64,000 nucleotides of DNA from Umezawaea tangerina (GTDB lineage: Bacteria; Actinomycetota; Actinomycetes; Mycobacteriales; Pseudonocardiaceae). The notes below the pieces were generated by a model, which was given only the letters and a program-made list of their open reading frames with translations, was not told where the DNA came from and searched no databases. The stretch lies in the NCBI RefSeq assembly GCF_003002815.1, contig NZ_PVTF01000009.1, forward strand, positions 310,001 to 374,000. The letters run 5' to 3'. Below, in pieces: positions 17,010 through 50,509 of the stretch. The position numbers were made by a program, and so were the translations under genes. Position 1 is the stretch's first letter. The number at the start of each line of letters is the position of its first letter.

Positions 17010-17078
17010 CCCACTAGGCGAAGCCCAACGCACAGCAAGAACGCCCCACCCACCAGCAACCCGAGCACAGACAACCCC

Positions 17079-17312
17079 GGCGGGCGCAGCCCGCCAGCGC
17101 CCACCCGGCGCGAAGCGCCTGGGGCCCTGTCCGACGCGCAGCGAGGATGCCTTCCCTGTCCAACGGCGCAGCCGAGGATCCCCCACTGGGCGCAGCCCGC
17201 CAGCGCGCATCCGGCGCGGAGCGCCTGGGGCCTCGTCCGCCGCGCAGCAAGGATGCCTGGTCCGACGGCGCAGCCGAGGATGCCCTGTCCGTCGCGGAGC
17301 GTCGGATGCCCT
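17079..17312. repeat. GCATC/GGATGC mini-hairpin array, copy 1
   Basis: A run of degenerate 20-30-bp units, each a tiny hairpin such as GGCGGGCGCAGCCCGCC or GGCGCGAAGCGCC joined by GGATGCC or GTCCGAC words. The same unit types recur at 33675-33893, 39574-39786 and 49911-50285. In every copy the array lies on the same side of the palindrome (here at 17355). There is no open reading frame of known type. Confidence 0.75.
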
Positions 17313-17354
17313 CCCCACCCACACCCCCCCACGCACCCCGACGAGAAGCCATCT

Positions 17355-17415
17355 CTATACCCACCCGCGCTTGTCAAGACAGCCCTACCGTCTTGACAAG
17401 CGCGGGTGGGTATAG
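17355..17415. repeat. perfect 26-bp-arm palindrome, copy 1
   Basis: Left arm CTATACCCACCCGCG followed by CTTGTCAAGAC (17355-17380), 9-nt loop AGCCCTACC, then the exact complement (17390-17415). The inner 11 bp are the same in all four copies of the window, whereas the outer arm is unique to each copy but always fully complementary. The loop is identical to that of copy 2. The right flank AGAACACTCGGCGACCGGGGTG is shared with copies 2 and 4. Confidence 0.92.
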
Positions 17416-17459
17416 AACACTCGGCGACCGGGGTGCCCCACCCCCAGTACGCTCCCGCG

Positions 17460-33674: not shown

Positions 33675-33893
33675 ACCAAGCCCGCTACCGCGCATCCGAC
33701 GCGAAGCGCCCCACCGCCTTGTCCAAAGCGCAGCAAGGATGCCCGTCCGACGCGTAGCGAGGACCCCCCAACGGGGCGCAGCCCGCCACCCCCAACCGGC
33801 GCGGAGCGCCCGCCCGCCTTGTCCGACGCGCAGCGAGGATTGCCCGGTCGGCGCCAGCCGATGTCCTGTCAGGCGCAGCCTGATGCCCTCGGA
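33675..33893. repeat. GCATC/GGATGC mini-hairpin array, copy 2
   Basis: Degenerate units such as GCGCATCCGACGCGAAGCGCC, AGCGCAGCAAGGATGCCC and GGCGCAGCCTGATGCCC, the same unit family and relative orientation as copy 1. It lies directly left of the palindrome at 33937, separated by the shared CCCGACGAGAAAGCCATCT flank. Confidence 0.75.
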
Positions 33894-33936
33894 AACCCAC
33901 CCTTCCCCCCCGCACACCCCGACGAGAAAGCCATCT

Positions 33937-33997
33937 CTATGCCCACTCCTGCTTGTCAAGACAGCCCTACCGTCTTGACAAGCAGGAGTGGGCATAG
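33937..33997. repeat. perfect 26-bp-arm palindrome, copy 2
   Basis: Left arm CTATGCCCACTCCTG followed by CTTGTCAAGAC (33937-33962), loop AGCCCTACC, exact complement 33972-33997. Compared with copy 1 the outer arm differs at several positions, and every change is matched on the other arm. Confidence 0.92.
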
Positions 33998-34099
33998 AAC
34001 ACTCGGCGAGCCGGGGTGAACCCCCTCACGAACACCCCAAACCAAGGGTCCCCCAACCCAGAAGACCCCCCAATACACAAGGTACTCAAGAGGTCCGAC
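33998..34099. repeat. conserved 100-bp flanking module, copy 2
   Basis: Runs from AACACTCGGCGAGCCGGGGTG through CAAACCAAGGGTCCCCCAAC to CAATACACAAGGTACTCA and GGTCCGAC. It is almost identical, in reverse complement, to 49706-49805. The hairpin of that copy (GACCCCC/GGGGGTC) is partly decayed here (GAGGTC). Confidence 0.85.
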
Positions 34100-34139
34100 A
34101 ACCCCACCAAACCCACACCCCCCAACCAGAAACCCCACC

Positions 34140-39377: not shown

Positions 39378-39487
39378 GGGGGGGTGGCGCTGGTGAAGTT
39401 GGGTTGCGGCCGTCCCGCCCTGCGAGTTTGGCTTTCGGCCCTCTCACCCTCCGGGGAAGCCCGGCCCCCGGCGCGCGATTGTCTCAA

Positions 39488-39542
39488 TGCTTGATCTTGC
39501 TTGTCAAGACGGTGAAGCTGTCTTGACAAGCAAGATCAAGCA
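39488..39542. repeat. perfect 23-bp-arm palindrome, copy 3
   Basis: TGCTTGATCTTG followed by CTTGTCAAGAC (39488-39510), loop GGTGAAGCT, exact complement 39520-39542. It shares the inner 11-bp core with the other copies, but its outer arm is unrelated to theirs and it lacks their ATAGAACACTCGG flank, so it is the divergent member. Confidence 0.9.
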
Positions 39543-39573
39543 GGAGGGCGCTGTGGATCGGGGGCAGAGGGGG

Positions 39574-39786
39574 AGTCTGGCTTCGCCAGCATCGGACTCC
39601 GTCCGACTCGGGCATCGGGCTCCGCCCGACACTGCATCCTCGGCTTCGCCGTCGGACGAGGCATCCTCGCTGCGCGTTGGACAAAGCATCCGCACTGCGC
39701 GTCGGACAGAGCATCCTTGCTTCGCGGCGGACAAGGCCCCAGGCGCTTCGCGCCGGATGCGCGCTGGCGGGCTGCGCCCATCGGGG
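39574..39786. repeat. GCATC mini-hairpin array, copy 3
   Basis: The clearest array: about seven units of 20-28 bp, each GCATC plus a micro-hairpin (CGGGCTCCGCCCG, CGGCTTCGCCG, CGCTGCGCG) plus a GGACA-type spacer. It ends in GGCGGGCTGCGCCC at the point where an acetyltransferase gene fragment begins. Confidence 0.8.
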
Positions 39787-39927
39787 TGGGGTGGCGTGGG
39801 TGAGGACGGCGTGTCGGTCGGGTGGGCGGTAGACCTGCGGTTCCAAGGCGATGTGGGCCTCGGCGGTGGCGAAGCGCAGGGCTACCAGGGAGTCTAGGTC
39901 GGTGGCGGTCGCTTGGCGCATGATCAT
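39787..39927 (-). pseudogene. truncated GNAT acetyltransferase, N-terminal remnant
   Basis: Reading leftwards from the ATG at 39927, the first 45 or so residues (MRQATATDLDSLVALRFATAEAH, then PQVYRPPDRHAVLTHA) look like the start of a GNAT acetyltransferase. The frame then passes straight into the mini-hairpin array and loses all similarity: no acetyl-CoA-binding motif follows. The rest of the gene appears to have been replaced or cut away by the repeat. Confidence 0.65.
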
Positions 39928-49546: not shown

Positions 49547-49621
49547 TGTTGGGCTGACGGGTGTTGGGCTGACGGGTGTTGGGCTGGGGCCCTCGGGGAC
49601 GGTGTTGTCCTCGGGGGCCCT

Positions 49622-49690
49622 TGGGTTTGAGGGGGTTTGGGTTTGGGGGGTTTGGGTTTGGGGGGTTTGGGTTTGGGGGGTTTGGGTTTC
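49622..49690. repeat. G-rich 17-bp tandem repeat
   Basis: Four near-identical head-to-tail units of GGGTTTGGGTTTGGGGG type. Runs of 3-6 G separated by TTT make the plus strand a strong G-quadruplex candidate. The minus-strand Pro/Lys frame through it is a by-product of the repeat. Confidence 0.85.
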
Positions 49691-49705
49691 TGGGGGCCCG
49701 GAATT

Positions 49706-49805
49706 GTCGGACCCCCTGAGTACCTTGTGTATTGGGGGGTCTTCTGGGTTGGGGGACCCTTGGTTTGGGGTTTTCGTGAGGGGTTCACCCCGGTCGCCGA
49801 GTGTT
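49706..49805. repeat. conserved 100-bp flanking module, copy 4
   Basis: Starts GTCGGACCCCCTGAGTACCT and ends CGGTCGCCGAGTGTT next to the palindrome. GACCCCC (49710-49716) pairs with GGGGGTC (49735-49741), leaving the loop TGAGTACCTTGTGTATTG. It is the reverse complement of 33998-34099; the first 50 bp occur a third time at 50436-50488. Confidence 0.88.
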
Positions 49806-49866
49806 CTATGACCACCGCCGCTTGTCAAGACGATAGCGCTGTCTTGACAAGCGGCGGTGGTCATAG
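49806..49866. repeat. perfect 26-bp-arm palindrome, copy 4
   Basis: Left arm CTATGACCACCGCCG followed by CTTGTCAAGAC (49806-49831), loop GATAGCGCT, exact complement 49841-49866. Followed by the shared AGATGGCTTCTCGTCGGGGT flank and the hairpin array, so its orientation is inverted relative to copies 1 and 2. Confidence 0.92.
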
Positions 49867-49910
49867 AGATGGCTTCTCGTCGGGGTGCGTGGGGGACGAG
49901 TGGTTGAGAG

Positions 49911-50285
49911 GGCATCAGGCTCCGCCTGACAGGGCATCGGCTTCGCCGACCGGGCATCCTCGCTGCGCGTCGGACAAGGCCCCTGGCGCTCCGCGCCGGT
50001 TGGGGGTGGCGGGCTGCGCCCCGCTGGGGATCCTCGCTACGCGTCGGACAGGACCCCAGGCGCTCCGCGCCGGATGGGGGTGGCGGGCTTCGCCCATCAG
50101 GGAATCCTCGCTGCGCGCCTGGTACAGGCATCGGCTGCGCCGATAAGGCCCTGGGCGCTGCGCGCCGGATGCGCGTTGGCGGGCTTCGCCCATCTGCGGA
50201 GCCTTGGCTTCGCCGTCGGACACTGCGTCCTCGCCGCGCGTCGGATGGAGAAGGCGGGCGCTCCGCGCCGGATGCGAGGTGGCGG
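49911..50285. repeat. GCATC mini-hairpin array, copy 4 (longest)
   Basis: About 375 bp of micro-hairpin units: GCATCAGGCTCCGCCTGAC, GCATCGGCTTCGCCGAC, CATCCTCGCTGCGCGTCGG, GGCGCTCCGCGCC and GGCGGGCTTCGCCC in varying order. Units are similar in design rather than sequence, and several loops are TTCG or CTCC. No gene is contained. Confidence 0.8.
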
Positions 50286-50435: not shown

Positions 50436-50488
50436 TCGGACCCCCTGAGTACCTTGTGCATCGGGGGGTCTTCACGGTCAGGGGACCT
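50436..50488. repeat. partial second copy of the flanking module
   Basis: GTCGGACCCCCTGAGTACCT, TGTGCATCGGGGGGTCTTC and GGGGACC repeat the start of the 49706 module in the same orientation, with the hairpin preserved (its loop changes two bases, TATTG to CATCG). It ends about 20 bp from the stop of the CBM2 gene. Confidence 0.85.
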
Positions 50489-50509
50489 CCGATTGGTGTG
50501 CCCTGGTGG

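Follow-up and report, generated by a model that had tools for sequence, protein, structure and literature searches.

How do four hairpins in one stretch of an actinomycete genome keep their two arms perfectly matched while the arm sequences differ from copy to copy? The window analyzed here is a 64-kb (64,000-nucleotide) stretch of a contig of Umezawaea tangerina. A sequence-only reading had singled out in it four palindromes with a 9-nt loop, an invariant inner 11 bp and covarying outer arms, and had proposed that either the fold is maintained or the arms are copied from each other. All four are present at the places given, perfect and with a loop of 9 nt. The limits of the third, 39488-39542 (minus strand, 23-bp arms), were exact; the other three, all with 27-bp arms, extend one base further on each side, to 17354-17416 (plus strand, loop AGCCCTACC), 33936-33998 (plus strand), and 49805-49867 (minus strand). 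A further perfect inverted repeat, of 23 bp with a 1-nt spacer, lies between two convergent genes at 760-806 and is without the core of the hairpin family.

The palindrome forms the inner part of a larger element of about 117 nt, which in the U. tangerina genome belongs in turn to a composite. The covariance model R1, built from alignment A1 of 38 diverse copies, matches the whole unit four times in the window with scores from 88.9 to 105.9 bits: copy 1 at 17328-17443 (plus strand, 105.9 bits), copy 2 at 33909-34026 (plus strand, 102.8 bits), copy 3 at 39456-39571 (minus strand, 88.9 bits, of the subfamily with the ATTGAGACAAT flank), and copy 4 at 49778-49893 (minus strand, 103.1 bits). Its further matches in the window are four wrong-strand shadows at the same places (45 to 53 bits) and one chance match (15.5 bits). 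Since 5 of the 43 loci picked (L080, L077, L037, L105, and L103) were left out of model building, R1 leans towards paired copies; of these, L080 folds back over a longer stretch at the end of a contig and probably arose in assembly.

From the outside inwards, an outer stem of CACCCCGA and TCGGGGTG (94.6% of cells paired) and conserved flanks enclose a variable paired stem, which ends in the fixed TTGTCAAGRC tip and the 9-nt loop. With the orientation fixed from the asymmetric loop and the flanks, the order on the 5' side is CACCCCGATnCGAAGCC, a short unpaired stretch, the variable stem, and TTGTCAAGRC; after the loop follow GYCTTGACAA, the variable stem, a short stretch with ACAAT or ACACT, and CGGGGTG. 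The foot carries CCCCGATnCGAAGCC on its 5' side and ACAAT...CGGGG on its 3' side. Genome-wide, the near-constant part covers 10 bp (TTGTCAAGAC, with AAGAT in some copies) rather than the 11 bp seen in the window, and the adjoining pair covaries (C-G, T-A, G-C). Folded as RNA, copy 1 is a single long hairpin of -73.5 kcal/mol (z -13.1). The set of 125 U. tangerina copies used below was obtained from 132 fuzzy matches, 7 of which were dropped for want of the core; identical 111-bp stretches are collapsed in it, and copies with more than three mismatches per core arm are missed. In this set the 3' flank is TTGAGACAAT in 82 copies and of the TAGAACACT type in 41.

The copies in U. tangerina sit behind arrays of mini-hairpins. 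At least one perfect C(GNA)G mini-hairpin was found in the 300 bp tested on the 5' side of all 124 testable copies, with a mean of 3.6; on the 3' side the mean falls to 0.016, and shuffled sequence gives 0.008. These mini-hairpins comprise 36 different perfect sequences, the arms of which differ yet match. Because they accompany every testable copy, the unit in this genome is a composite of element and 5' array, about 350 bp long by estimate. In the window, with limits drawn approximately by eye, the arrays cover 17075-17305 at copy 1 (plus strand, many C(GNA)G loops), 33695-33885 at copy 2 (plus strand), 39575-39790 at copy 3 (minus strand), and 49905-50270 at copy 4 (minus strand). They are practically missing around 82 copies on contigs of other genomes (mean 0.02), of which the titled ones are Amycolatopsis and Umezawaea endophytica. 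Other small repeats were seen nearby. A GTCGGACCCCCTGAGTACCTTGTGTATTGGGGGGTCTTC-like repeated hairpin occurs on either side of copy 4, at about 49695-49740 and about 50455-50495, as well as near 34055-34100 and downstream of other copies; a G-rich minisatellite of GGGTTTGGGGGGTTT repeats at 49610-49690 adjoins copy 4; and in Amycolatopsis loci such as L043 and L044, the element is flanked by a CCCAATGTGGCATTGGG-like repeat upstream and a GCAATGTCGCCGCCAGGCGAC small hairpin downstream.

A covariance-model search of this and related genomes, as the sequence-only reading had suggested, bore out a family with shared flanks. The 10.68-Mb U. tangerina genome holds at least 150 R1 matches, all those listed scoring 70 bits or more; the 125-copy set is a subset of these. 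The core pattern with up to three mismatches occurs 176 times in this genome and not once in the reversed control, and the family is therefore not a product of chance. With up to two mismatches, the pattern is found in 8 of 297 genomes and 3 of 46 genera of the bacterial family, in 151, 61, and 10 copies in the genus of the window and in 85, 41, 11, 9, and 1 elsewhere. R1, with at most 12 matches scored per genome, reaches E ≤ 1e-4 in 69 of 294 genomes of the family and 13 of 46 genera. The best match has E ≤ 1e-9 in 41 of these 69 genomes, from 8 genera; in the other 28, where the best E exceeds 1e-9, the matches may partly be any long hairpin. At 20 R1-matched loci inspected, one per genome and from 5 genera, the tip is present in all and the foot motifs are recognizable in nearly all. 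The carriers named among the matches listed are seven Amycolatopsis species and Umezawaea endophytica.

Across the class, the model R2 matches 5 of 394 genomes at E ≤ 1e-5, U. tangerina included; of the other four, one is a strong match of 82 bits in another family, and three score close to 45 bits, in the range of wrong-strand shadows. The strong match, L368 (G349:C23:3631-3751), could be a transfer or a stray contig. Carriage by viruses, phages or plasmids was rejected: the exact core pattern has no match in viral contigs, and blastn returned nothing from phages and plasmids with one 119-nt copy or from plasmids with a 384-nt composite. The patchy distribution may speak for a mobile palindrome. 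It also bears on the idea that the palindrome is a double-stranded DNA binding site, required in long and perfect form by a nucleoid, gyrase or segregation protein. Such a site would suit the fixed palindromic core TTGTCAAG-CTTGACAA, the many dispersed copies and a pairing without clear wobble preference, but it would have no use for complementarity between the variable middle arms, and the same pattern gives 151, 61, and 10 copies within one genus and none in 289 of the 297 genomes. We therefore regard a binding site as highly improbable.

The covariation itself is strong. In alignment A3 (32 sequences), 95.5% of cells pair, and 22 of 32 pairs show changes on both sides. The both-sided changed cells number 216, versus a shuffled mean of 61.6 (sd 6.7); none of 500 shuffles reaches 216, and slid structures give 48 to 58. 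Five covariation measures were computed, and in one of them, the number of further pair types, the alignment does not stand out (56 versus 51.8, reached in 47 of 500 shuffles). Among the 125 U. tangerina copies, 108 are perfect across 12 outer pairs, with 61 different perfect arms, and 90 of the 98 copies from other genomes (loci L016-L020 and L043-L150) are perfect in 10 pairs. The statement that changes on one arm always match the other is thus right for most copies and too strong for the 17 imperfect ones of this genome, chimeras L301 and L304 included; copies with noncomplementary arms, which the sequence-only reading had named as counterevidence, do occur, in a minority. The variation is concentrated in the stem. 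In a 37-copy subset, stem diversity rises to 0.5, in a symmetrical manner on the two arms, whereas most flank positions stay at 0. A 44-copy subset has stem values of up to 0.70, and most positions of its near flanks do not exceed 0.09; in the TAGAACACT type, stem and flank contrast less, and some flank positions are above 0.3.

Covariation is commonly taken as a sign of selected RNA structure; here the paired changes look like a product of copying between DNA arms. Four observations carry this view. In an RNA helix, G·U should do far less harm than A·C, whereas the stem mismatches of both sets, few as they are, comprise 17 G·T and 11 A·C over 2,480 cells, without a clear wobble preference: 13 G·T, 7 A·C, and 13 others in the 1,500 cells of the U. 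tangerina copies, and 4, 4, and 13, respectively, in the 980 cells of the other-genome set. Copies with one or two mismatches give 8 G·T, 9 A·C, and 7 others, and A3 gives 15 G·U versus 14 A·C. Next, 19 of the 56 single-pair steps between perfect haplotypes are transversions (11 of 39 in U. tangerina and 8 of 17 in the other-genome set), which a single G·U intermediate does not explain. Nearest haplotypes differ mainly by both-sided changes, with 78 both-sided versus 13 one-sided in U. tangerina and 36 versus 12 in the other-genome set, reciprocal nearest pairs counting twice in each; in U. tangerina, a single base pair altered in both arms is the most frequent difference (48 of 72 counted). 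Finally, in the 37-copy subset, the two arms of the stem vary symmetrically next to largely constant flanks. On this evidence, copying between DNA arms is a better account of the pairing than selection on RNA.

Some of the same counts lean the other way. In the U. tangerina copies alone, G·T leads A·C by 13 to 7, and 28 of the 39 steps are transitions, as a route through G·U would also give. In addition, one subfamily has T·G adjoining the loop, and that pair is G·T in 18 and A·C in 1 of the 132 matches. We rejected this excess as an RNA signal and left the position out of the stem, since it is confined to copies with AAGAT before the loop and may equally reflect a larger loop.

Matching arms could also be spread ready-made. 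If homologous recombination exchanged whole hairpin haplotypes, this might in principle be the sole source of the match, with no present copying from arm to arm. The chimeric copies, with breakpoints in the core, agree with such exchange: L301 and L304 in U. tangerina combine the left arm of one haplotype with the right arm of another, and L077, in another genome, is a third chimera of this kind. So does the observation that related species often have different common haplotypes at matched sites. In Amycolatopsis, both flanks could be aligned at 11 sites, one of which contributes three loci; of the resulting 13 locus pairs, 9 differ in arm haplotype and 4 have the same one, with copy L045 carrying a single mismatch. 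However, exchange creates no new paired haplotypes, while the commonest nearest-neighbor difference is a single pair changed on both sides, and at one site shared with the related genome G022 (C9 455657 versus G022 2421808), two single pairs differ, each on both arms. Judging from the sequences, haplotype exchange between copies also happens; as the only cause of the match, we consider it quite unlikely.

The copies occupy a characteristic place, behind stop codons and in a preferred orientation. With genes called by a custom codon-usage gene caller, the gene 5' of the element reads toward it at 103 of 123 copies and at 87 of 92 where the gap is at most 450 bp, and a median of 89 nt (n = 87) separates the stop codon from the first mini-hairpin. 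The flanking gene pairs are +- in 68 cases, ++ in 34, -- in 13, and -+ in 7, with 3 of 125 copies having no call on one side.

This orientation and position give real support to the main rival reading, that of a sense-strand RNA element of 3' ends, either a terminator without a U-tract or a 3'-end stabilizer, whose fold is kept by compensatory mutation. The 34 ++ versus 13 -- tandem settings, the stable fold of copy 1, a covariation that no shuffle equals and the predominance of transitions among the U. tangerina steps all agree with it, and in Streptomyces, long stable hairpins with weak U-tracts are frequent among terminators, according to the available part of PMC12207403. On the other hand, convergent genes flank 68 of the 122 copies with both neighbors called, a setting in which a hairpin acting in both directions would show no preferred orientation. 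The 10 nt after the stem contain 2.3 T on average and 3 at most in the 125 copies, in none of which a U-tract was found. G·T and A·C mismatches are nearly equal, transversion steps are frequent, and most of the sites compared turn over between species at 91% identity. We judge the RNA element unlikely, although it is the alternative to be taken most seriously. The outcome in which the hairpins are ordinary terminators without shared flanks did not occur, as flanks are shared and a T-tract is missing. A known Rfam family was likewise rejected: Rfam 15 gives no match at the gathering score in the window or in 7 other loci, and the 12 matches below it, at 6 loci, comprise 10 to microRNA models, 1 to an sRNA and 1 to another model, such as any long hairpin may give.

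The 3' half of the element also invites comparison with a promoter. The spacing between TTGAC and ACAAT or ACACT resembles that of a weak sigma-70 promoter, for example at 39478-39507 (minus strand) of the window. An outward promoter would use TTGAC of the 3' core arm as -35, ACAAT or ACACT as -10, and the variable stem as spacer, and the motifs are indeed 16 to 19 bp apart in 234 of 243 copies (121 of 125 in U. tangerina, 94 of 98 in other genomes, and 19 of 20 in a broad set); a promoter scan of part of the window flagged one copy, versus 0.5 expected. Yet the -10-like hexamer starts with T in none of the 234, the downstream gene is oriented the wrong way in 83 of 124 copies, and a promoter would leave the left arm free to vary alone, all of which makes this function very improbable.

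Comparison with G022 reveals how readily the sites change. A 546-kb contig of U. tangerina aligns with it in order, in 86 blocks covering 438 kb at 90.8% mean identity. After removal of chance matches without the core (5 of 18 and 3 of 10 regex matches), the contig has 13 real copies, of which 4 have an element at the matching site in G022 and 9 have none; the 7 copies of G022 are these 4 shared ones, 2 without an element in U. tangerina, and 1 outside the chain. R2 has no match in G022 at the nine matching sites, four from the window and five others, nor in U. tangerina at the two unshared sites of G022. All four window copies thus lack an element at the matching G022 site. At copies 1, 2, and 4, homology ends no more than 2 bp from the stop codon upstream; at copy 3 it continues for about 160 bp beyond that codon. 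The relative holds other DNA, sometimes other genes, in their place, and the window copies thus mark points at which sister species differ in gene content or in intergenic DNA. A second genome, G060, from the genus of the window, has no model match at the four window sites. It does have two matches, one of them truncated where a contig ends; they adjoin the position that corresponds to about 56.3 kb of the window, and U. tangerina has none there. At the four sites shared with G022, the arms are unrelated haplotypes at two, partly broken at one, and changed in two pairs on both arms at one.

Part of this turnover is general intergenic turnover, because gaps make up 19.7% of the 546-kb contig. 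At the cleanest filled and empty site, 445 bp stand opposite 3 bp, with nonrepeat DNA flanking the element. The relative may have lost its copy here, or entire intergenic regions may have been exchanged, and the turnover as a whole may reflect gain as well as loss. Three such comparisons by eye revealed extra nonrepeat DNA and no clear target-site duplication. On contig C9 of U. tangerina, an 11.2-kb segment without a G022 counterpart (380821-392069) ends next to an element copy at 391696. The fetched Amycolatopsis loci include no empty site, a count that is uninformative since these loci were chosen for carrying the element. Of the two mechanisms first proposed, selection for an RNA fold accounts less well for the data than arm-to-arm copying does: mismatches of the G·T kind are almost as rare as those of the A·C kind, pairs are often swapped by transversion, and the close relative lacks an element at most of the sites compared.

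We propose that the family consists of noncoding, nonautonomous mobile palindromes of the REPIN or MITE kind, in which tip and foot are fixed and the stem serves as its own template, a reading to which we give an even chance. Its support includes the 9 of 13 copies absent in the relative, the 2 of the relative's 6 assessable copies absent here, and the diversity of the neighboring genes. The family and its anatomy, the covariation without clear wobble preference, the presence or absence of copies between close species and their placement at 3' ends are observed; mobility as a unit, the enzyme and the copying of arms are what we infer. Within the family of bacteria that holds Amycolatopsis and Umezawaea, the tip (TTGTCAAGRC with its 9-nt loop) and the foot motifs would be kept near constant, probably through recognition by a trans-acting enzyme, and the stem between them would have self-complementarity as its sole requirement. 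After a mutation in one arm, a polymerase would fold back at the fixed core and copy one arm into the other, either by quasipalindrome template switching or by hairpin-primed synthesis during mobility, and conversion of whole hairpins between copies would spread the haplotypes. New copies would land behind stop codons, mostly in the sense of the upstream gene and, in U. tangerina, together with the mini-hairpin array.

Several observations weigh against a mobile palindrome. The searches yielded neither a transposase nor a clear target duplication, and 4 of 13 sites are shared; the preference for 3' ends and for one orientation could mean selection at the transcript level, and the conservation of tip and foot in five genera could reflect a cellular function. 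Nevertheless, the proposal can be taken one step further, and here we are tentative and rather doubtful: the 10-bp tip might act as a snap-back primer at each round of mobility or replication, one arm being written from the other, and the element might be moved by an enzyme unlike RAYT/IS200 that reads tip and foot. The two arms of the stem would then change in step without loss of the perfect hairpin, and a class of dispersed repeats would be defined by its shape and tip and not by its stem sequence. For those who search for new RNA structures, the family is a practical caution, and it provides a natural setting in which to study template switching.

The sequence-only reading did not recognize a described element, and neither Rfam nor the full-text literature searched for such repeats in actinomycetes, Amycolatopsis, Saccharopolyspora and Pseudonocardiaceae, a search with subscription journals largely outside its scope, yielded a description. 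Nor does the element fit any of the described repeat families with which it was compared. It shares with intrinsic terminators its position after stop codons in sense orientation, and GC-rich actinobacterial terminators also combine a long stable hairpin with weak U content (PMC12207403, available part). It differs from them in a tip conserved over several genera, in conserved foot motifs and in the turnover of its sites.

Miniature inverted-repeat transposable elements (MITEs), of which ERIC is an example, are likewise short, noncoding, intergenic inverted repeats of high copy number. The present element has terminal inverted repeats and no coding capacity, and at about 117 nt it should be too short to encode a transposase. 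In contrast to MITEs, its terminal repeat is just CACCCCGA/TCGGGGTG, and neither a parent insertion sequence nor a clear target duplication was found; a search for a parent transposon among the neighboring genes, 90 of 243 of which were sampled, gave no common family, none of 149 Pfam families occurring in more than 3 of them, and a parent may lie elsewhere in the genome.

The GTAG- and CGTC-tagged REP superfamilies are palindromic repeats, with subfamilies that have alternative complementary stems. Their stems of 5 to 13 bp, with G·T pairing often observed, differ from the 23 to 27 bp found in the window and from a G·T count hardly above A·C (for the REP superfamilies, available part of PMC3733652, in the text of which the word actinobacteria is absent). 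At the 3' foot, the other-genome set has CGTC in 69 and GTAG in 22 of 98 copies, A3 has GTAG in 10 of 32, and U. tangerina has GTAG in 3 and CGTC in none of 125; these tags are thus not conserved family-wide, and a distant link to REPs through them is possible. The process that we propose for the stem has its counterpart in E. coli. Template switching that makes imperfect inverted repeats perfect is established at quasipalindrome hotspots there, for single loci and reporters, according to the available part of PMC7202029, and not as a force shaping a genome-wide repeat family.

REPINs, the hairpins associated with RAYT (TnpA-REP, Y1_Tnp), come closest. A RAYT/Y1 transposase was rejected as the driver in the eight strong pattern carriers, none of which has Y1_Tnp (PF01797; positive in 5 of 14 controls); among 33 genomes searched, PF01797 was found only in G007, itself without an element match. 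Y2_Tnp (IS91-type) was found in none of 24 genomes, the control genomes likewise being without a match. A REPIN is an inverted doublet of REPs with conserved ends and a less conserved spacer, whereas the present element is a single hairpin of about 117 nt in which tip and foot are fixed and the stem between them is free. Both are dispersed, extragenic, noncoding and nonautonomous hairpins in many copies, and compensatory arm changes are described as common in REPINs (PMC3116915, available part). REPINs are therefore the nearest relatives in kind of this element, a prolific palindromic repeat of actinomycetes without the transposase that drives them.
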